The position numbers were made by a program, and so were the translations under genes. Under the pieces are notes generated by a model, which saw nothing but the letters and a program-made list of their open reading frames with translations, had not been told where the DNA came from and did no database searches. A DNA stretch of 37,356 bases from a virus. The DNA lies in IMG/VR virus record IMGVR_UViG_3300025661_000011, positions 1 to 37,356 of that record. The stretch is one strand, 5' to 3'. Below, in pieces: positions 3 through 25,143 of this stretch (positions are counted from its first letter, which is position 1; every line of letters starts with the position of its first letter).

Positions 3-1826
3 TGGGACTCTCCAGACCTCTGGCTTGATTATGCATTCACTGGGAAGAGAAAGGTTGTGTTAGAGAAACCAGTGGCGTTTCAGCACTCTGGATTTAGCCT
101 CATAGACAAAGAAGAGAAGAGTGGGGAGTATAGAATAGCTGTAGAAGAGATAGAAAAAGAAAAAGAAATAGAGGGGTCTTTTAACTTTGAGGATATTTAC
201 AGTTATATTGTGAACACTCTTGATTATGGACACATAGTAGAAATAGGCGCATGGTTTGGAAAGTCCACTGCATTCCTGGCTAAGTTGGTTAAAAATAGCG
301 GTAAGGATATAAGACTTGATGTTGTGGACACCTGGAAAGGCTCTGATGAGGTATGCCAAAACAAAACATTAAAGGAGTGTAATGTCTTTGAAGAGTTTAA
401 AAAGAATATGCATGATAGGAAAGTCTGGGATACTATTAACGCCATGCGAATGACTTCTCTTGAAGCATGTGAAATCTATGAAGATAACTCTTTAGACTTC
501 GTATTCATAGACGCAAACCATTCTTTTGAATCTGTGTCAGAAGATATAAGCAACTGGATTGATAAAGTGAAACCCGGAGGTATGATTGCCGGGCATGATT
601 ATATAGATGGATTTCCTGGGGTTAAGGAAGCTGTGAAGAGTATATTTGCGGATTCCTTTAATGTTACTGGATGGTCTTGGTATCATGTAAAAGATGGAGA
701 TAATTCAGAGAGTATTGATTTTACTCCTAAAGAGCTAATTAAAGAGAAAGTAATCTGTAACTATTCTTTCATAGATGGTCCGAAGGTGGATATAAGAACT
801 GACTCAGACAAAGAATTTGATGTTGAATTTATTGATGAGGATAGTAATAAAGTTATTTATAAAGACAGACTAAAGGCAAATCACTGGGCTAGTGTTAACA
901 GAAAATATTTCGTAAATTGGGCTATCAATGTTAGCTATAATGGGACTATAGTTAACTCTTTCACCCTTGATCTTAAAGGTAAGAAAGTTTTAATAAGTTT
1001 TGGCAGTAAAGCATTAGGAGATACTGTATCTTGGTTTCCTTATGTGGAGGAATTTGCACAAAAGCATTCATGCAAGGTAGTCGTGAGCACGTTTTGGAAT
1101 AATTTATTCGAGAAGGAGTATCCCGGTATAGAGTTTATATCCCCTGGTGATAGTGTTACTGAGGTATATGCTGTATATAATTTAGGTTGTTATGATGAGG
1201 ATATGTTGGCTAAGAATAAAAGAGACTGGCGTGAGATACCTATGCAACAGATTGCCACGGATATACTAGGTCTTGAGTATGTGGAAAAGCGGCCTAGGAT
1301 TAGTATACCGGATTTACCTCGTACTCAAAAGAGAGATTATGTAAGTGTAAGTGAGTATAGCACCATGTTATGTAAATATTGGAATCTTGCTGGAGGATGG
1401 AAGTCCTTAGTGGACAAGATAAAAGAGAGTGGATTGCAGGTAATGAGTGTTAGCAAAGAAAAGACAACTTTAAAAAAAGCAAGGAGGTGCAATGGAAAGA
1501 GTATTGATGAGACTATCAGGAATATTTACTATTCAAAAGCGTTTATTGGGGTGTCAAGTGGTTTGGTCTGGTTAGCTTGGGCTATGAATGTGCCTGTTGT
1601 ACTGGTAAGTGGGTTTACTAAAGAGTTTTGTGAGTTTGGAGAGTCTGAAAAAGTAAGCCGGGTCATTAATGAGAATGTATGCAATGGGTGTTTTAATGAT
1701 GTGGAGTATTATTTCGATAGGGGTGACTGGAAATGGTGTCCTAGGGAAGAGGACTTTATTTGCACAAAGGAGATAAGTGTGGAGGACATATTTGATGGGT
1801 TACAGAAAGTATTGGGAACTGGTTAA
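3..1826 (+). CDS. SAM methyltransferase fused to TibC-like O-heptosyltransferase (5' partial)
   Basis: The frame is open to the left edge: codons before the GTG at 57 read on without a stop, so the gene probably starts outside the window. Residues below are numbered from that GTG. Residues 55-200 are a class I methyltransferase: glycine-rich motif I EIGAWFGKS (62-70), then VFIDANH and KPGGMIAGHDY, as in the Methyltransf_24 group that often acts on sugars. Residues about 320-589 resemble the TibC/BAH autotransporter heptosyltransferases (GT9-like fold): KKVLISFGSKALGD near the domain start and GVSSGLVWLAWA near the sugar-nucleotide site. Four late cysteines, C542-x2-C545, C561 and C569, match that family's iron-binding finger. 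TibC enzymes put heptose on Ser/Thr of surface proteins in the cytoplasm. The next gene, 16 bases on, is a Thr/Ser-rich fibre and a natural candidate substrate. That link and the actual sugar are inference; an ordinary glycan-biosynthesis enzyme is the alternative. Confidence 0.75.
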   Translation, partial: WDSPDLWLDYAFTGKRKVVLEKPVAFQHSGFSLIDKEEKSGEYRIAVEEIEKEKEIEGSFNFEDIYSYIVNTLDYGHIVEIGAWFGKSTAFLAKLVKNSGKDIRLDVVDTWKGSDEVCQNKTLKECNVFEEFKKNMHDRKVWDTINAMRMTSLEACEIYEDNSLDFVFIDANHSFESVSEDISNWIDKVKPGGMIAGHDYIDGFPGVKEAVKSIFADSFNVTGWSWYHVKDGDNSESIDFTPKELIKEKVICNYSFIDGPKVDIRTDSDKEFDVEFIDEDSNKVIYKDRLKANHWASVNRKYFVNWAINVSYNGTIVNSFTLDLKGKKVLISFGSKALGDTVSWFPYVEEFAQKHSCKVVVSTFWNNLFEKEYPGIEFISPGDSVTEVYAVYNLGCYDEDMLAKNKRDWREIPMQQIATDILGLEYVEKRPRISIPDLPRTQKRDYVSVSEYSTMLCKYWNLAGGWKSLVDKIKESGLQVMSVSKEKTTLKKARRCNGKSIDETIRNIYYSKAFIGVSSGLVWLAWAMNVPVVLVSGFTKEFCEFGESEKVSRVINENVCNGCFNDVEYYFDRGDWKWCPREEDFICTKEISVEDIFDGLQKVLGTG

Positions 1827-1841
1827 GAGGGGTATTATATC

Positions 1842-4622
1842 ATGCCGACACATTTAACAACGACTGTTGATGCGATTATCACGGCCAAGCATACTTATGT
1901 TGGTACTGATGGTGTGCATCTAGGAACAAGTGGTAGGATAGTGGATGATAATTCTACTATTGAGATTACGGAATTTAGCTCTGATACTAGTCTAGGAACC
2001 AGTGATAATATTCTAGTGACACAGAATGCGATTAGGGCTTACGCAAATAGTGTAATTAGTACTTCTGGAATATCTGGAACTAATGGTACTAGTGGTACTA
2101 GTGGTACAACGGGAACGAGTGGTACAACGGGAACTTCAGGTACCTCGGGAGTGAGTGGGTCAAGCGGTACCTCAGGAGTTTCAGGAAGTAGCGGTACCGC
2201 CGGGACTTCTGGTACCACAGGTACAAGCGGAACTTCGGGTGTGTCTGGTACAAGCGGGACCTCTGGGACTTCTGGGACTTCTGGAGTAAGCGGAACTAGC
2301 GGAACATCAGGAAGCAGTGGAACGAGTGGACTCAGCGGTAGTAGCGGGACGAGTGGAACCTCGGGCTTGACAGGTACAAGTGGGACCTCCGGGGTGAGTG
2401 GAACAAGTGGAACAAGTGGAACTACGGGCACTAGTGGAACGAGTGGGGTGGAAGGCACCTCTGGTACTTCTGGAAGCAGTGGAGTGTCGATAGTAGCAGG
2501 TGGGTTTGCTTTCACTTCAGGTACTGCATCAACATCATGGGCCGTGACTCACGGGCTTGGGAAGAAGTATGTTACTGTTAATGTATATGATAGTACTGAT
2601 GTGGCTATAACCCCAGGTAGTATTACTGTTGTGGATGATAATAATTTAACCATTGCTTTTAGTAGTGCGGTGAATGGTTATGCGTCAATAGCTGCGGGTG
2701 GAGGAGATGCGGGTGTTGATGGAACTTCAGGGACTAGCGGAACAGCAGGAACCTCAGGGACTAGTGGAATAGATGGAACTCTTTTTGGTTCTTCAGGTAC
2801 ATCGGGTACTACTGGGACTAGTGGAACTTCAGGTACTTCAATATTGACAGGCGCTTATGTATTTACACAGTTAGGAACGTCTGATACTTGGGAAGTTTAT
2901 CACAATCTTGGATACAAATACGTAAATGTGGAGGTTTTTAACACTTCCCATGAGGCCATATTTCCTGAAGCTATTACGATGGTGGATACTACTCATTTAA
3001 CTATTACTTTTAGTACTGCAATAGCTGGGTACGCAAGTGTAGTGAGCGGCGGCGGGACTTCTGGGCTAGGTTATTCTGGGGTATGGGGAAGCTCTACTGT
3101 TTATATTACTGGCGATGTTGTTTCTACTGTGGCTGGAACAGCTTGGGCATGTTCTACTACACATACTAGTGGAGCAGGTACAGAACCGACAAGCGGAACT
3201 GATTATACGACGTATTGGGATTTATTTGGTGCAAGTGGTACTTCAGGTACGTCAGGAACCTCAGCAACGTCCGGGACTAGTGGAACAAGCGGTGTGTCTG
3301 GAAGTAGTGGCACAAGCGGTACTACCGGGACTAGTGGAACCTCTGCAACGAGCGGAACTAGTGGTACCTCGGCTAGTGATGGCACATCAGGTAGTTCAGG
3401 CACCAGTGGGAGTTCCGGTACTAGTGGAACTAGTGGAACTAGTGGAACATCGGGAGCGTCCATATTAGCCGGTGCTTATGTTTATACCCAGATAGGTACG
3501 GCGACTACGTGGACTATTTATCATAATCTTGGGTATAAGTATGTAAATGTAGAAGTGTTTGATACCTCTGGTGTAGTTATCATACCTGATACTATTACCA
3601 TGGTGGATACTACTCACTTGACTATTACCTTTGGCGGCGTTGCAGTGGGTGGCTGGGCTAGTGTAGTGAGCGGCGGTGGTGAGGCCGGTTTGGGATATGA
3701 AGGAGTATGGGCTGATGCAACTGTGTACTCCGCCGGTGATGTGGTTAGTACTATACTAGGCACTGCATATATATGCTCGACTTCGCATACTTCTGGGACA
3801 GCTTACGAACCTCCAAGTGGGACCTCTTATGAGACCTACTGGGATTTATTTGGCGCGAGTGGAACGAGTGGGACTAGCGGGACGAGCGGAACCACGGGTA
3901 CTAGTGGTACGTCAGGTACATCAGGAGTGAAAGGAGATACTGGTACAAATGGAACATCTGGCACTAGTGGGATAGCAGGAACGTCAGGAACTTCAGGGAC
4001 TGATAGCACTAGCGGAACAAGCGGTACTAGCGGGATTAGTGGTACTAGCGGGATTAGTGGTACTAGCGGTACTTCTGGTACTAGCGGTACATCAGGTACT
4101 AGCGGAGTGGATGGAGACGTAGGCGCGGCCGGGTCTTCTGGTACATCCGGTGAAGATGGTGATACTGGAGCTGCTGGAATAAATGGTACATCCGGTACTA
4201 GCGGAACGGCGGGTACTAGTGGAGTAACAGGAGATGGTGGTACTAATGGAACGAGTGGGACGAGTGGAGTTTCTGGTTCGGCTGAGTATATATCATATGG
4301 AACCTCTGCTGAGGTGGCTATCACTGGTGGGATTATCAACCTACCTGATTATACTACACAATGGATAAAGATATATGAAGGGGATAGTTCTATATTTACT
4401 AATATCTATCCTCATGTACTTACTACCCCCTGTGAAGAAGGGTTTAAAGTGTTTCTAACTTGGGCTGTTACTGATCCTGGAGGGGATACTCCTATTATGA
4501 ATACCGGAGGTAATCTTAGAATACCGGGTTCGTTCACCTTTGATGGGCATTATGACTGTGTAACAATGGTGGTTGGCTCTGACGAAAATTGGATTGAAGA
4601 GAGTAGGAGTAATAATTCTTAA
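1842..4622 (+). CDS. Collagen-like Gly-Thr-Ser fibre with beta and chitin-binding-like modules
   Basis: A 926-residue fibre-like protein. The N-terminus ends in a phrase common in tail fibres ([16 protein letters not shown]). Long Gly-Thr-Ser triplet blocks follow, from about residue 75 to 810. They are interrupted by three copies of a 70-residue beta domain (about 217-288, 336-403, 543-613; core [10 protein letters not shown] / YHNLGYKYV with [12 protein letters not shown]). After copies two and three there is a CBM5/12-like module (about 407-463 and 615-671) with the pattern W-x-Y-x-GDVVS, SHTSG, EP and YWDLFG. The C-terminal 113 residues are a unique globular tip. Collagen-like triplets normally form trimeric rods, and the modules suggest glycan binding, so a receptor-binding or side fibre is likely. 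About two thirds of repeat residues are hydroxylated, which would suit O-glycosylation by the enzyme upstream (inference). Confidence 0.8.
2064..4275 (+). repeat. Gly-Thr-Ser triplet-coding repeat blocks
   Basis: Degenerate 9-base units encoding Gly-Thr-Ser or Gly-Xaa-Ser, in several blocks separated by globular modules. Synonymous codons vary freely (ggaactagt, ggtacaagc, gggacctct), so the array is old and held by protein-level selection. One stretch (4023-4058) is an exact tandem copy of an 18-base unit and looks like recent slippage. The segments about 2848-3240 and 3466-3858 are diverged copies of one larger module pair. Confidence 0.85.
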
Positions 4623-4634
4623 GGAGGTTTTATT

Positions 4635-6392
4635 ATGTGGAAGATTTTTTTAATACTATGCTTACTCCTGCCTACATTCTCACTGGCTAATGAGGGTGAT
4701 CCTGTGCTGGAGAATATTGTTACAGAAGGTGATATATTAGTGGGAGGGAGTGTGGGAGTAGGGACCCCAGCTCCTAATTATCCTATTGAAATTATTCATA
4801 CTACGGATAAGTCTTTGCTTTATATTACTCAGTCGAAGAATAGTGGAGGGTCTAGTAATATTATTGATATAGTAGATGATAGGGGGTATGGTGGTGTTAA
4901 TTCGGGTAGTTTGATATACGGATACGCTTGGTGGAGTGGTACAGAAACAGGTTCCTTTTTAGATTTTGAAACCTTTGATGGAGGTGGGTATACTAGTAGA
5001 TTCTGGGTTGGGCTGGATGGCAATGTTGGCATCGGGACTGCTGGTCCTACTCAAAAACTAGAAGTAGCGGGGACTATTTACTCCACCTCTGGTGGGTTTA
5101 AATTTCCTGACGGGAGTACACAGACCAGCGCAGTAAGTGGATCTACTAGTGCTAAGTGGCAGGTTGTTTCTCCGTCCGATAGTGTCACAACTATTAATAC
5201 TGCATTAAGCACAGGAAACCCGGTATATTTTTCTCCTGGGACTTATACCCCAACATCAGATTATATATGTCCTAATGTGGGACAGTTAATCACTGGAGCT
5301 GGTGTTACCAGAACTATTATAAGTGTAACGCATGCAAATATAGCCGGATTTACCAAGGGTGTGTTTTATTTTTCTTCTGGCGAGAATGGTCCGGCTTTAA
5401 GAGATATGAGTATTATTTTTGAGCAGCCCCAAGATCCCGCTACTGTTGATAACTTATATCAGTATAAACCAGCTGTGTATGCCCAAGCTTGTGCTAGATT
5501 TAAGATACAGGATTTACGTATAGAAAGAGCTTGGGATGGTATTGACATGAAGGCTGTTGGTACTACTAACTCAGGTGGAGCCTTTATTAATAATTTAGAA
5601 ATGAGCATGTTCAGAGTAGGTATCGACATAGCTGGTGCGCTTGATACTATTAGGATTAGTAATTTACATATATGGCCCTTTGGTAATGTTAAGGCATTAG
5701 GCCTTAGGCCGTATATGGATGATTCGGATACTATTGGTATTAAGTTTGGAAGAGGTGACCAGAGTTTTATAACTAATTATTTTAGTAATTGTTATTGTGC
5801 TATTTATTTGTATAACGAACCCGCGATTGCTATGCCTGGTACTGGACGGATTACTGTGTCTAGTGGTAGTTTTGAACGTGGGTATGCTTTGCTTAGTACT
5901 TCTTCCTCCGCTATTGCCTTATTTGATTCATGTTCCTTTAGTTATTCTTTGGTAGGTACAAATAGTATAGCAGCCAATGGAGGGAATGTGAATATAACAA
6001 ATTCTAGATTTGCTCACAATAACGCAGGAGCCTCCGAACCTATGATTACTATGAGTGGTAATGGAAATATGAATATAAGTAATTGTCATATGTATAATAC
6101 GTCACATGAGAAATGGTTATATGCTACTGGTGGTGATGTTATGTTGAGTAATAACTACTTTATAGCCTATTCCTCAGTGTATAGCTCTTACTTTATTGAC
6201 ATTTCGACCAGTGCATTGATTACTATGACTGGAAATAGAGTAAGAACTTTAAATGGATCTGGTAATAATAAAATACTGGATGTAAATGTAGTGTCTAATA
6301 ATCATAACATTACTGGAAATACTTTTAGGGGCTGGACAGTCGATTCTCCTTCTGGTGGTTGGGGTACTAGTGTGTATGATAATAATAATTAG
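4635..6392 (+). CDS. Exported tail-fibre-like protein with parallel beta-helix
   Basis: 585 residues. The N-terminus is a clear Sec signal peptide (charged start, Leu-rich core, likely cut after SLA at residue 18), which is unusual for a virion fibre. The mature end begins NEGDPVLENIV, echoed in the next gene. Residues about 129-166 carry a fibre cassette, VGIGTAGPTQKLEVAGTI followed by FPDGSTQTSA. From about 175 the protein has the repetitive short-strand, Asn/Gly/Ser-turn pattern of a right-handed beta-helix (pectate-lyase or tailspike type: VYFSPGTYTP, then many ISN or TN turns). A depolymerase-like or receptor-binding role is plausible; no catalytic residues could be assigned. AAGGAGG sits seven bases before the ATG. 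Confidence 0.65.
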   Translation: MWKIFLILCLLLPTFSLANEGDPVLENIVTEGDILVGGSVGVGTPAPNYPIEIIHTTDKSLLYITQSKNSGGSSNIIDIVDDRGYGGVNSGSLIYGYAWWSGTETGSFLDFETFDGGGYTSRFWVGLDGNVGIGTAGPTQKLEVAGTIYSTSGGFKFPDGSTQTSAVSGSTSAKWQVVSPSDSVTTINTALSTGNPVYFSPGTYTPTSDYICPNVGQLITGAGVTRTIISVTHANIAGFTKGVFYFSSGENGPALRDMSIIFEQPQDPATVDNLYQYKPAVYAQACARFKIQDLRIERAWDGIDMKAVGTTNSGGAFINNLEMSMFRVGIDIAGALDTIRISNLHIWPFGNVKALGLRPYMDDSDTIGIKFGRGDQSFITNYFSNCYCAIYLYNEPAIAMPGTGRITVSSGSFERGYALLSTSSSAIALFDSCSFSYSLVGTNSIAANGGNVNITNSRFAHNNAGASEPMITMSGNGNMNISNCHMYNTSHEKWLYATGGDVMLSNNYFIAYSSVYSSYFIDISTSALITMTGNRVRTLNGSGNNKILDVNVVSNNHNITGNTFRGWTVDSPSGGWGTSVYDNNN

Positions 6393-6406: not shown

Positions 6407-7825
6407 ATGAGGATTTTTCTTTTAGCTTTGATCGTGTTCTGTTTCGCAACTCCTGTCTGTGCCGCTGAGGGTGATCCACTCCTGGCGGGTATTGTCGGAG
6501 ATGGAAGCGCTCTGTTTGATGTACCCACTGCTACAGTATCTCAATATGCGGAGAAGGTTTATACCACGGGTACATACACCTCTGCGTCGACATATTATCC
6601 TATGTTTACTTCGGTGTCTCCTGATGGAACTTATGTGGTTCAGTCACCTAGAACTGATATAGGACTTTCCTATGTGCCTTTTACTGGGTTGCTGTCTGTG
6701 GGAAAGATCTCCTCAACCTCAGGAGGAGTGGTTTTTCCTGACGGGACTACACAAACCACGGCAGCAACTGGGAGTGGGGTTAGCGAGTGGACCCTGAGTG
6801 GAGATGATTTGAGTACAGATAATGTTATCGTGGGGAGAACATTGGTGGAGTTTGCTTCCAGGATTGATGGAACTACTGCACAGAGTGTCGATCCAGTTTA
6901 TAATATTACCACTGGAGGGAATAATTTTGAGTCTATGATGGGGACTAGGAGTGCTTATACTTCTGACAGAACGCCTATGTTGCAGATGACTAAATATATG
7001 GGGAGTGCTGTTGGTGGAGGTATCTGGGACGGAGGTGTGTTGCAGCTTGTTGGATATATGAACGATGCTTCTAAGGAATTTATGAGTATTTCTACTACTA
7101 CCTTGGTTAATAATGCTGATCAGGGGACTAGCGGTGTTTGGGTAGGAGGCCGATGGCAGGAGGGCGTGGCTACACATAGTAGAGTATATGCAGGACCCGG
7201 GACTAACTCTTTTGTTACTTGGAATATATCAGTAGATACTACCGCAGGATCGCCGCCTAATCAGGTTATAGGTGTTGAATATGATATGAAATCTTTAACT
7301 GATAATACTAAGATGACGGTTTTGGGAGGTGACTACTATCCCAATAGGGGCAATTATGTAGGTATTTGGATAGTCAGTGGTGATACTGCCGCGCCCGAGG
7401 GATATCAGACAGACTGGGCTATTGGTATTGGTAGTGGAGTGGCAAAAACTGGTGGATTAAATCCTTCTGCACATCCAGATAAATCGGGATGGTATTCAGG
7501 TCTGGTGGTCACTGCTAATACCCTAGTGCCGGGTGCGGGTAATGAGGCGATCTGGTTACAGGGTGCGAGTAGTACTACTTACGATGCAGACGGGATTAGG
7601 TTGACAGGGTATCATATAACAGGTATGAGTTTTTATGGTGCTACTGCTGTGGCCGGAATTACTTTTGATGGGAGTACTTGTACTACTGGGCTGAATTTTG
7701 ATGGAGGTACGTTTACAAACGGGACCGCGATTCAGATGGGTAGTGCTAATTATATCTGGTTTGGTGATGAGAAACTGTGGCGAAATGGGAATGATCTTTA
7801 TTGGGGATTGACTAAGTTGAATTAG
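6407..7825 (+). CDS. Exported fibre-like protein, relative of the upstream gene
   Basis: 472 residues with a Sec signal peptide cut after about residue 19 (PVCA). The mature start AEGDPLLAGIVGDG matches the start of the upstream protein, and the cassette SSTSGGVVFPDGTTQTTA (about 98-120) matches its FPDGSTQT cassette, so the two share an N-terminal architecture. The body is rich in Gly, Thr, Ser and aromatic residues, as in beta-rich fibre domains. It ends with short NYIWFGDEKLWRNGNDLYWG strands typical of fibre C-termini. No enzymatic motif was recognised. It may be a virion fibre that keeps its signal, or a genuinely secreted viral protein. Confidence 0.6.
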   Translation: MRIFLLALIVFCFATPVCAAEGDPLLAGIVGDGSALFDVPTATVSQYAEKVYTTGTYTSASTYYPMFTSVSPDGTYVVQSPRTDIGLSYVPFTGLLSVGKISSTSGGVVFPDGTTQTTAATGSGVSEWTLSGDDLSTDNVIVGRTLVEFASRIDGTTAQSVDPVYNITTGGNNFESMMGTRSAYTSDRTPMLQMTKYMGSAVGGGIWDGGVLQLVGYMNDASKEFMSISTTTLVNNADQGTSGVWVGGRWQEGVATHSRVYAGPGTNSFVTWNISVDTTAGSPPNQVIGVEYDMKSLTDNTKMTVLGGDYYPNRGNYVGIWIVSGDTAAPEGYQTDWAIGIGSGVAKTGGLNPSAHPDKSGWYSGLVVTANTLVPGAGNEAIWLQGASSTTYDADGIRLTGYHITGMSFYGATAVAGITFDGSTCTTGLNFDGGTFTNGTAIQMGSANYIWFGDEKLWRNGNDLYWGLTKLN

Positions 7826-20960: not shown

Positions 20961-23318
20961 TTATTTACCCAGCCAGTTCGTCTTAGGCTCTTCTATCTCT
21001 ATGGGTATCTTTAAAATATCTCCGTTTATCTCAATCTGGCGCAGGATCTCAAGATGTGTCTTTATATAGGTACTCCACCAGTCGTATCTCTCAGGTGGCA
21101 GTGAGCATAGCACGGAATCATGTGTCTGTGTAAGGAGGTGTATGTCCTGTGGCTTGATGAGATATAGTGACAAGATACCCAGGTTCATCATGTCTACTAT
21201 TGTACTTTGGGGTTTTTGAGCATAGCCGCTGCCGATAGTGGTTTGATCGATCCGTCCGGTGAAAATACGAGTGCGTCCAAATGGGTTAGTGAGACGCCTG
21301 TTAGTCTCGATCTCAGATTGGATGTCACGATGGTATTTAGGTAGTTCTGGCACCACTGTGAAGTACTTCTGCTGGATTGCTTGGGCTTCGTGGACAGGCT
21401 TTCCGATAATTCTGGAAAAGAGTTGCACCCCCATCTTGTAATTCGATCCATGTACTGTCTTCTTCGCAATGAGGTACTCATCTGCATTTAACTCCTGCCA
21501 GGGTTTGTCGAATATCCACTCGCCTACTTTGTAGTGTATTTTAAGTGGGCCGTTTAGTACATCCTTCATTATCTGTGAGTCCATGAAGTAGGCCATAGCT
21601 CTTGCTTCGGCCGCGCTCAGGTCTGCGTCGAGGAACACGTGGTCTTTCTCGGGGATGAATATCTGCTTGAGGTGCTTTGGTATATTCTGGAGATTGGTCC
21701 CATTGTTGAACTGGTCCGTTGAGGAGGTCAGTCTGCCAGTTACGGTATACCCATAGGAGCACTTCATGTGTTCATCTGGGCTTATTATTGCGCTTAAATA
21801 AGTGCCAAGGTCCTTTGCTTTTAAGACACGAGCACATAGTATCTGCTTTAGTATGAACCTGTGCTCGGGGTGCTTGGCTACCATATTTTCCAGGGTCTCT
21901 TTTTTTACTGTATAGTTTCCTTTCGGAGTGCGTGGGACTATAATGCCTAGGGTTGTGAGGTACTCGCCGATTTGCTTTGAGGAATTTGGGTTTATGTCTT
22001 GCTTGGCATACTTGTTTATGATATCCAGGGCGATTGGTAGTTCCTCTTCTTGGATATAGTCTTTCCACTCTTTATGCAAAGGCATGTCGACACGAATGCC
22101 ACGGTGTTCCATCTCGAAGATGACACGCCGGAATGGGTTTATATAGCCAGTGTAGAAGTTGTAGAGGTTGTTCTCTTTTAAGTCCTTTATAAGACCTAGC
22201 GCGGCTCTGTGTGTGCCAATAACATCCTTGCAGTTGTATGACCATAGTGCCTGGTCTTTAGGGAGGTCTTTTGATTTCCAATCCTTAACTGCATCTTTGT
22301 GGTAGTTCATCTTTGTGTATGCAGAGATGATGAACCCTAGGTTGTGAGGCATGTCACTGTGTATAAGCTGATGAGCGTATCGTGTGTCAAATATAGGCTC
22401 ACGTGGGAAGCCTAGAAGTGGAAGCAAATAATGAAGATCGTAGTGTATATTTTGGCCAATCTTTAATAAACCTCCTTTTGCAAAGATACGCTGCATATGG
22501 TTGAGTATCATTATCTGTTCAGGCTCGGACCACCGCAATTTTAATCCCTTGTGCCTGAATGGGATACACATGGCTGAGTCTGGCGAGAGAGTGAATCCTA
22601 CACATGTGATACGCTGAGCGGCGACTGTTTCTATGTCGAGGCAGGTTTGCGTGGACTCCTCGTATATTTGGTCTAGGTAATTCAGGACTTGGGTCAGGGT
22701 AGGATCTATGTGCTCTTCCCAGGGTGTGTCTGCTTTGTAGAGTCCGAAGCCTATCTCTGCGAAGATTTTGGTATCATTTCGTACATAGGGATATAGGTCC
22801 ATTTGTCCACGTTGGAGGTGTGAAGGATGTAAGGTGGGGACAACACGGATGCCGGGGACGAGAGAGCAGTCGAGGACAGATCCACGTTGCTTGAGGATGC
22901 CGGACTCTTCGCAGAGTGCACTGAGTGCGGTGGCTCCGAGCGCGAGGATGACCGTAGGGTTGACATTCTGTATCTCCTCCTTTAGAAAAGGGATGAAGTC
23001 TTCTATACTCAGATTATATTCCTGCAGCCGGTCTAGTTTATTATTAGGCGGGCGCACCTTTACTACATTGGTGACGTGGAGAGAAGTGCGCATCAAGCCG
23101 ACATCTTTGAGGAGTTTGTCCAGCAAGAAGCCCGCCTTTCCGCAGAAATACTGTGAGTTCAGTTCCTCATCCGCGCCCAGTGCCTCTCCCACTATCATCA
23201 TCTTTTTAGGGGTGAAGGCGAGTGGGTATACTAGGTTCTGGCCTCTTGTTTTGGTCTCCAATAACGCGGCAGATTCAAGGGGACATTTCGGCCCAGTGTT
23301 CAACTCAATAATAGGCAT
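20961..23318 (-). CDS. Uracil-DNA glycosylase / family A DNA polymerase fusion
   Basis: 785 residues, three domains. Residues 1-200 are a family 4-like uracil-DNA glycosylase: GEALGADEE (44-52), TNVVKVRPP, and the active-site HPS (164-166). The N-terminal iron-sulfur cysteines of true family 4 are missing. Residues 215-400 are a DEDDy proofreading exonuclease with D228/E230, N290/D294 and Y361/D365 intact. Residues 430-785 are the polymerase: motif A D566-x-S568 with E571 and R573, motif B from K619, motif C HDS (733-735). Motif B has His623 where Pol I has Phe762. A UDG-polymerase fusion is known in SPO1-type phages. It should be the replicative polymerase, perhaps with uracil surveillance. 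It overlaps the deoxyribosyltransferase-like gene's stop region. Confidence 0.9.
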   Translation of the reverse strand: MPIIELNTGPKCPLESAALLETKTRGQNLVYPLAFTPKKMMIVGEALGADEELNSQYFCGKAGFLLDKLLKDVGLMRTSLHVTNVVKVRPPNNKLDRLQEYNLSIEDFIPFLKEEIQNVNPTVILALGATALSALCEESGILKQRGSVLDCSLVPGIRVVPTLHPSHLQRGQMDLYPYVRNDTKIFAEIGFGLYKADTPWEEHIDPTLTQVLNYLDQIYEESTQTCLDIETVAAQRITCVGFTLSPDSAMCIPFRHKGLKLRWSEPEQIMILNHMQRIFAKGGLLKIGQNIHYDLHYLLPLLGFPREPIFDTRYAHQLIHSDMPHNLGFIISAYTKMNYHKDAVKDWKSKDLPKDQALWSYNCKDVIGTHRAALGLIKDLKENNLYNFYTGYINPFRRVIFEMEHRGIRVDMPLHKEWKDYIQEEELPIALDIINKYAKQDINPNSSKQIGEYLTTLGIIVPRTPKGNYTVKKETLENMVAKHPEHRFILKQILCARVLKAKDLGTYLSAIISPDEHMKCSYGYTVTGRLTSSTDQFNNGTNLQNIPKHLKQIFIPEKDHVFLDADLSAAEARAMAYFMDSQIMKDVLNGPLKIHYKVGEWIFDKPWQELNADEYLIAKKTVHGSNYKMGVQLFSRIIGKPVHEAQAIQQKYFTVVPELPKYHRDIQSEIETNRRLTNPFGRTRIFTGRIDQTTIGSGYAQKPQSTIVDMMNLGILSLYLIKPQDIHLLTQTHDSVLCSLPPERYDWWSTYIKTHLEILRQIEINGDILKIPIEIEEPKTNWLGK

Positions 23319-23678: not shown

Positions 23679-24956
23679 TTACTCCTTCATATTCAATGTA
23701 ATGTTAGAGTCCGCGATGGTGTGATTACGCTCATCTGACTCCATACCTATTGCTCGTCTCTTGGTATTGTGTGCCGCGAGAAGGAGATTACCACTTCCTA
23801 CAAAAGGGTCCAACACAAGCTCACCTTCCACAGTTGCCAAGGAGATCAGGCGCTCCAAGAGTGCGACGGGCTTCTGCGCCGGGTGCAGCTTATGCCCGGT
23901 GTTTTTGTACTCCAAGACTGCATAAGATGGAGTGGACATCTTGCGGGGGTCTCCATTAGAGAAGAACACTACAGGCTCATAGTCATTAGAAGGCTTGAGA
24001 TAAGGGTGGGAGGAGTGTGCTACGGTGGGTTTATACCAGATAAAGATAGTGTCGAATATTTGGTATCCACACTCCTGCACTAGCTTATATATCCTGCCTG
24101 TAAGGAGGTGGCGCGTGGCACAGAATAGATAGCAGAGTGCGCCTGGTTGGAGTTTTGGTTTCACTGCTAGGAGCATTTTCTGCGTTATACCCAGACCTGT
24201 CTCGGGGTCACTGCCATACTTCGTGTCATATTCAACTTGCCACGGCGGGTCGGTGCATAGGCAGCTCACACTACTATCATCCAGGAAAGGTATTAATTCC
24301 AAACAGTCACCCTTCTGCAACTGGATCGCGGTGTTGGAAGTACGCTTCTCAAAAGGAATAGCCTCTCGGGCTTTTGCTTTTGATTGCTTGGTGATAGCTG
24401 CAAGTAATGTCCTCCCCTTAAGCTCTAAGGATCGCTTAAAGGCGTTCTTAGCAGACGTCTTGCTTTTTAGAAGGCCTAGGCTTGGGTCGGCTTCTAAGGC
24501 ATCGGCCAGCTGGAGGTCTTCACAGATAGCGCCGGCACTTATGCCGAGCCTCTCTGCGGTGTCTTTTACTTTCCATCCAGTGCCGTCGCCAGCGCGGCCA
24601 CTCTTCGGCTCGCCATATTTTTCTACATACTTAGAGTGGAGACGTTTCTTGGCGGCGAGTTCTTCAGGATAGGAGAGAGCGTCTCTGTGGAGGTTCTCAT
24701 CCAGTTCTGCTACCTCCTGCATCCAGGGGTCTAGTGATTCGTAGTAGTCTATCCTTATTTCTGTCCAGCCCAGGAGTTGGCAGGCACGTATGCGGCGCTC
24801 TCCAGCTACTAAAAAGTTCTCTCTATTGATAATAACTGGTTCTATCAGGCCAGTGGTGCGTATAGACTCACTCAGTTCCTCTAGTGACTTCTGGTCGAAG
24901 TGCTTGCGTATACGTTCCGGCTTTATACGTATTTGGGCTATTGGTATAATCGGCAT
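23679..24956 (-). CDS. ParB-like domain fused to beta-class DNA methyltransferase
   Basis: 425 residues. Residues 1-110 are a ParB-N domain with [13 protein letters not shown] (52-64). A helix-turn-helix lies near 128-152 ([17 protein letters not shown]). Residues 215-425 are an N4-cytosine/N6-adenine methyltransferase: catalytic motif TDPPW, then [14 protein letters not shown] and the SAM site [14 protein letters not shown], in the order typical of beta-class enzymes. ParB-methyltransferase fusions are frequent in phages. They protect DNA from restriction or mark it for control. No restriction enzyme is nearby, so it is an orphan. Target sequence unknown. Confidence 0.85.
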
Positions 24957-25143
24957 CAGTGAAATATCCTTTCTTGTTGGGTTTTTCCGTGGGAGGGGAG
25001 GGGATTACATTCCAGTACGCCGCGCCTTTGTAGGGGCAGTGTGTGGGAATAAAGTCTGGGTCGTTGTATTCACTATCGCCTATGTCTAAGGCGCCTATGT
25101 CTAAGGTGCAGGCAGTCTTGCAAAAATCACACCGGTATCGCAT
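24868..25143 (-). CDS. Cys-pair protein of unknown function
   Basis: 91 residues from the ATG at 25143, chosen for its GGAGG site eight bases upstream. CDFC and later cysteines (CTL, HCPYKG) suggest a zinc ribbon. A 15-base direct repeat encodes LDIGALDIG. The C-terminal 30 codons overlap the methyltransferase start in another frame and may not be functional. Confidence 0.5.

Follow-up and report, generated by a model that had tools for sequence, protein, structure and literature searches.

The closest described relatives of the system considered here are the BAHT enzymes TibC and AAH (TIGR04414), which are encoded beside Ser/Thr-rich surface proteins and partner beta-helix autotransporters. 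We analyzed a gene pair in a 37,356-base viral sequence, IMG/VR virus record IMGVR_UViG_3300025661_000011 (the window; record class linear, probably a fragment), in which a methyltransferase/TibC-like fusion directly precedes a collagen-like fibre. The window enzyme shares with TibC and AAH the fold, the N-terminal barrel, the catalytic Asp, the donor-site Thr, Lys, and Trp, the four-Cys iron finger, and the position beside a Ser/Thr-rich surface protein. It differs in having Thr in place of Arg286, a shortened thumb, a fused methyltransferase, and a place in a viral clade, and its partner is a collagen-like fibre amid phage genes rather than a beta-helix autotransporter. This enzyme-fibre pairing recurs across many unrelated phages, suggesting that phages coat the fibres they make with sugars.

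Other systems resemble the pair in part. In BclA, a collagen-like filament on the surface of the Bacillus anthracis exosporium, the collagen-like region bears O-glycans (glycans cited in PMC9614988). However, BclA has proline-containing GPT triplets, is modified by other glycosyltransferases, and is found on the spore surface. Some sugars of its glycans are O-methylated. Mimivirus, through its collagen lysyl hydroxylase/glucosyltransferase L230, glycosylates a collagen-like protein of its own (PMC9614988); the target is hydroxylysine, the enzyme is unrelated, and the virus is eukaryotic. Glycosyltransferases of mycobacteriophages modify virion proteins, namely capsid and tail tube (Freeman 2023, cited in PMC12619734), but the enzymes and virion proteins are different and no collagen-like fibre is involved. 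In the open literature that we searched, no paper linked TibC-like enzymes with collagen-like phage fibres of Gly-Thr-Ser (GTS) repeats; automatic annotation already uses the label 'Glycosyltransferase Aah/TibC' in a phage.

Gene calls on the window and on the loci compared with it are mechanical open reading frame (ORF) calls. The enzyme and fibre genes contain the following features.

3-1826, plus strand: methyltransferase/TibC-like O-glycosyltransferase fusion, N terminus truncated (ORF, profile matches, fold)
237-602, plus strand: Methyltransf_24 domain, amino acids 79-200 (PF13578, E 1.1e-20; Foldseek)
759-1808, plus strand: TibC-like domain, amino acids 253-602 (TIGR04414, 269.3 bits; residue mapping; thumb comparison)
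1827-1841, plus strand: 15-base intergenic gap with the Shine-Dalgarno sequence AGAGGGG touching the enzyme stop codon (sequence)
1842-4622, plus strand: collagen-like fibre, 926 amino acids (PF01391, E 6.7e-48; triplet counts)
2067-2489, plus strand: longest unbroken Gly-X-Y run, 47 triplets (triplet count)
2490-2711, 2838-3065, and 3459-3680, plus strand: three copies of a domain of about 70 amino acids (phrog_16122, a phage virion structural protein family)
3084-3200, plus strand: CBM_5_12-like carbohydrate-binding module 1, below the cut-off if searched alone
3708-3818, plus strand: CBM_5_12 carbohydrate-binding module 2 (29.8 bits, cut-off 26.2)
3852-4283, plus strand: second Gly-X-Y region, 17 + 24 + 5 triplets (triplet count)

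The C-terminal domain of ORF 3-1826 is a member of the TibC family by both cut-off and fold. Its score against TIGR04414 (hepto_Aah_TibC) lies above the curated NCBI cut-off of 200, and TibC is the only strong sequence relative of the enzyme in the PDB (4rap/4rb4, E 5.5e-49). An AlphaFold model built on an alignment of 37 sequences (window plus viral; mean predicted local distance difference test score [pLDDT] 83.9) matched TibC (4rap) in Foldseek over 370 columns, with a TM of 0.85 (TMt) and a root-mean-square deviation of 2.2, across the N-terminal barrel and GT-B core. After TibC, the next fold matches were lipopolysaccharide (LPS) heptosyltransferases. Following the residue mapping of PMC4358343, TibC Asp110, Thr226, Lys230, and Trp305 are all kept, as D340, T454, K458, and W523, and the iron-finger Cys339/342/358/370 correspond to C560/C563/C579/C587. 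D110, K230, W305, and the four iron-finger Cys do not vary across 43 phage clusters, and these Cys are invariant across 86 phage domains. Thus, the TibC identity proposed in an earlier, sequence-only reading of this DNA held, in profile score, kept residues, and predicted structure alike. The contig begins inside the ORF, which truncates the enzyme at its N terminus.

Among the best fold matches of the methyltransferase domain, outside TibC and family 9, were the sugar O-methyltransferases MeT1, SpnH, NovP, and MycF, with a few other O-methyltransferases mixed in. Because the domain most resembles sugar O-methyltransferases, it more likely methylates sugar than protein.

The fibre contains 129 Gly-X-Y triplets, of which 72 are GTS (counted in runs of at least four triplets). 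Ser or Thr occupies 80% of X and Y positions, and Pro none. Gly-X-Y runs cover 42% of the length, so that calling the fibre 'made largely of' triplets was a slight overstatement; three copies of the phage virion protein domain, two CBM_5_12 domains, and unique ends form the remainder. By its Gly-X-Y repeats and phage structural domains (PF01391, phrog_16122), the protein is a putative phage collagen-like tail fibre. Since Gly, Thr, and Ser each use every synonymous codon, the repeat is kept at the protein level. As described in the sequence-only reading, the enzyme gene adjoins this Ser/Thr-rich fibre, with 15 bases (1827-1841) between stop codon and ATG.

We determined how often TibC-like enzymes and collagen-like proteins occur together in phages. 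The collections consist of fragments. Random records were chosen with a single 14-mer, which met one lineage three times (collapsed), and the proline-collagen control is skewed to GC-rich DNA. In the comparisons below, lineage confounding is reduced, not removed. Of 50 TibC-bearing viral records, 41 had collagen-like repeats, whereas only 5 of 44 random records, with copies removed, had them. When the TibC records were clustered at 70% identity, collagen was present in 25 of 30 clusters, versus the same 5/44 (p = 6e-10). In the other direction, TIGR04414 was matched over the cut-off in 27 of 100 GTS-pattern contigs (13/50 and 14/50) versus 2 of 93 proline-collagen controls (1/50 and 1/43; p = 4e-7), and 1 of 44 random records had a TibC-like gene once copies were removed. 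The association persisted among contigs of 80 kb or more (14/21 versus 1/16, p = 2e-4). The pairing noted in the sequence-only reading thus recurs more often than expected by chance. The excess of GT2 enzymes in GTS contigs was not significant (9/50 versus 3/44, p = 0.13), and we rejected general glycosyltransferase enrichment as the cause of the pairing.

The composition of the neighbouring proteins points the same way. Ser/Thr-rich collagen lies within about 10 kb of the TibC-like gene in 27 of 43 clusters. At X and Y, collagens in TibC loci have 85% Ser+Thr and 0.3% Pro, versus 31.5% Pro in a control set that was itself chosen by proline pattern. Ser/Thr-dense ORFs were found in 27 of 42 TibC loci (746 kb of DNA in total), compared with 2 of 120 random and 4 of 120 control loci (about 1,100 kb per set). 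Mucin-like TPT-repeat proteins flank the enzyme in the largest TibC cluster, and some members have a giant collagen-like protein too. Two related clusters have mucin-like TPTPTxT proteins close to the TibC-like gene (loci L024, L026, L029, L047, L049, L053, L055, L060, L062, L063, and L074). That two Ser/Thr-dense architectures accompany one enzyme suggests that dense acceptors, rather than one fold, are the common factor. In L036 (11804-21064), L039, and L053, the strand opposite the TibC-like gene carries a giant collagen-like ORF of about 3,100 amino acids with 850-950 Gly-X-Y triplets. Microcystis phage Mel-JY01, an isolated phage, also has the pair, with its TibC-like gene at 4.7-8.4 kb and, by our ORF call, a collagen-like ORF of 185 triplets 1.7 kb upstream of it.

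Relatives that carry the glycosyltransferase without a GTS fibre, which the sequence-only reading took as evidence against a link, do exist in part: 9 of the 50 TibC-bearing records, L059 and L031 among them, lack a collagen match. All nine are fragments or possibly so, and several have mucin-like Thr-rich proteins instead. Together, these sequence data support a functional link of TibC-like enzymes with Ser/Thr-rich collagen-like proteins across phages.

Phage TibC ORFs also carry other domains. Glycosyltransferase group 1 (GT4) is matched in 29 of 42, and other ORFs carry FkbM or other methyltransferase domains, GT2 domains, and, in one case, a sulfotransferase. The Methyltransf_24-TibC architecture of the window is common to L059, L070, L031, and L065. 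These fusions look like glycan-building steps shuffled round one protein-directed transferase. One of the 42 ORFs has intein splicing and LAGLIDADG matches inside the TibC-like fusion.

Sequence comparison indicates that the window enzyme is a viral variant of the TibC family. In a tree of TibC homologues, made by quick search without bootstrap, all 43 phage clusters and 11 metagenome-assembled contigs form one clade (SH-like approximate likelihood ratio test [SH-aLRT] 98), separate from cellular BAHTs and TibC. Among these 11, several show collagen neighbours or fusions like those of phages and may be viral. TibC Arg286, which touches the adenine of ADP-heptose and is required for activity (PMC4358343), has given way to other residues in 35 of 43 phage clusters, whereas 41 of 47 homologues on genome contigs of bacteria and archaea retain it. 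Both dodecamer formation by TibC and modification of TibA depend on the beta-hairpin thumb; thumb segments of at least 32 residues are found in 4 of 43 phage clusters versus 39 of 47 genome sequences. With Arg286 and the full thumb both missing from the window enzyme, neither an autotransporter substrate nor heptose is to be assumed. Autotransporters are an unlikely substrate, and the transferred sugar, judged from these residues, need not be heptose.

Two other features of the homologues were seen. L448 and L449, metagenome-assembled genome contigs from two Bacteroidota bins, have identical TibC-like domains that fall within the phage clade; a phage contig may have been placed in bacterial bins. 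Cellular TibC homologues of Selenomonadales and Acidaminococcaceae (L456-L476) are frequently tandem gene pairs.

Our favored interpretation, to which we assign a probability of about 0.68, is that the phage decorates its own Ser/Thr-rich fibre with methylated O-glycans built by a multi-domain enzyme. The analysis shows the family, fold, and catalytic residues of the enzyme, the gene order, and the recurrence of the pairing across phages; the acceptor, the sugar, the order of steps, and the benefit are what we infer. Enzyme and fibre would be translated side by side, and the TibC-like domain would act in the cytoplasm of the infected cell, where it would put a host nucleotide-activated sugar on Ser/Thr at X and Y of the GTS stalk. 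The fused methyltransferase would then cap the sugar by O-methylation. The lost N terminus probably carried more glycosyltransferase domains, as in relatives. Since no donor-synthesis gene was found in TibC-bearing phages, the donor probably comes from the host: no HldE adenylyltransferase domain exceeded the cut-off in 50 TibC-bearing records (two matches were weak), and donor synthesis by the phages themselves was rejected on this basis. The sugar coat may stiffen and protect the proline-free stalk and alter the surfaces and defences that the fibre meets. In worm cuticle, Thr-linked glycans stabilize proline-poor collagen, and such stabilization would explain the lack of proline in the GTS stalk. 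We raise more tentatively a broader idea: a viral TibC-like clade, re-tooled as it lost the dodecamer thumb and the contact to adenine and became fused to domains of the GT4 and sugar methyltransferase kinds, might coat proline-free Ser/Thr collagen- and mucin-like fibres with methylated O-glycans that replace the stabilizing role of proline.

Several results weigh against glycosylation of the fibre by the adjoining enzyme. The link from enzyme to fibre as substrate is statistical, drawn from co-occurrence, and shared phage lineage or habitat could account for part of the association. So far, TibC is known to modify Ser of autotransporters with a beta-helix fold rather than collagen (PMC4358343). 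The position of TibC Arg286 is T504 in the window enzyme, and the thumb segment, at 22 residues versus 32 in TibC, is 10 shorter. Immediate adjacency of enzyme and collagen exceeds expectation only modestly (8 of 43 clusters versus 3.6 expected, p = 0.02), and many phages have 2-45 kb between the two genes. The nearest relatives in architecture have no strong GTS fibre in the available contigs (L059 and L031 lack collagen matches; those of L065 are weak), and 73 of 100 GTS contigs, mostly fragments, have no TibC-like gene.

The pair lies in a plus-strand run of tightly packed genes, mostly with Shine-Dalgarno sequences, from base 3 to about 17,272, which includes virion genes for a phrog_511 internal virion protein and an SU10 adaptor-like protein. 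Two genes follow the fibre.

4635-6392, plus strand: 585 amino acids, fibre-like, with a signal-peptide-like N terminus; rival substrate (ORF call)
6407-7825, plus strand: 472 amino acids, with a signal-peptide-like N terminus as in the 585-amino-acid neighbour (ORF call)

Profile searches gave no family match for the 585-amino-acid protein, and its structure model, folded alone, is weak (pLDDT 36.9) with many short strands. Both fibre-like proteins open with the signal-peptide-like stretch and then have an EGDPxLxxIVxxG motif in common, an odd arrangement for phage fibres assembled in the cytoplasm. Predicted promoters around the locus were not in excess (14 versus 14.2 in shuffles), and terminators were little so (5 versus 3.6). 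The right part of the window, on the minus strand, holds replication genes for a primase, polymerase A, a Sak4-like annealing protein, and an exonuclease. There, a single ORF (20961-23318, minus strand) combines a uracil-DNA glycosylase superfamily domain, a 3'-5' exonuclease, and DNA polymerase A, and another (23679-24956, minus strand) fuses a DNA methyltransferase with a ParB-like domain. A 15-base repeat, CGCCTATGTCTAAGG, is present in two perfect copies at 25077-25106. The window DNA polymerase, used as bait for relatives and controls, found no relative, and the fetched TibC loci contained no homologues of the window's other plus-strand genes beyond knob-like repeats.

If the enzyme acts as TibC does with autotransporters, its substrate would be a beta-helix-like fibre such as the 4635-6392 product, with the collagen fibre a bystander. 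Known BAHT acceptors are beta-helices (PMC4358343), and the 585-amino-acid neighbour starts 12 bases past the fibre and shows those short strands in its weak model. However, the thumb for the ring that holds the beta-helix is missing in the window enzyme and shortened in most phage clusters. Moreover, the recurring partners are collagen or mucin-like repeats, not beta-helices, and the 585-amino-acid gene has no homologue near other phage TibC genes, its sole matches being knob-like repeats in L134 and L199. We therefore consider a beta-helix substrate very unlikely.

It is also improbable that the enzyme blocks superinfection by altering LPS or a surface protein of the host, with the fibre link reflecting a shared host-recognition region. 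Pelagimyophage glycosyltransferases in host-recognition regions have been interpreted in this way (PMC7029224), but in the sole characterized case of a TibC fold with N-terminal barrel and iron finger the substrate is protein (PMC4358343). In addition, those GTS contigs show no significant enrichment of GT2 enzymes, and the TibC-like enzyme is linked to Ser/Thr-rich collagens, not proline-rich ones. Finally, the pairing could lack function, if large aquatic phages carry both long low-complexity fibres and glycosyltransferases by ancestry or habitat. Aquatic phages share gene pools, and many TibC matches lie in long contigs. We give this explanation very little weight, since the association survives both 70% identity clustering and restriction to contigs of at least 80 kb, enzyme-collagen adjacency is above chance, and related phages have mucin-like proteins flanking the enzyme.

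If phages do glycosylate their own fibres with TibC-like enzymes, GTS repeats, which are very common in environmental phages, would gain a function, and the possible stability of collagen-like stalks without proline would be accounted for. The window would provide a testable enzyme-acceptor pair, and the TibC-like gene could serve as a genomic marker of phages with glycosylated fibres. An enzyme for O-glycosylation of bacterial adhesins would then be a widespread viral tool, acting on the organ with which phages contact their hosts.

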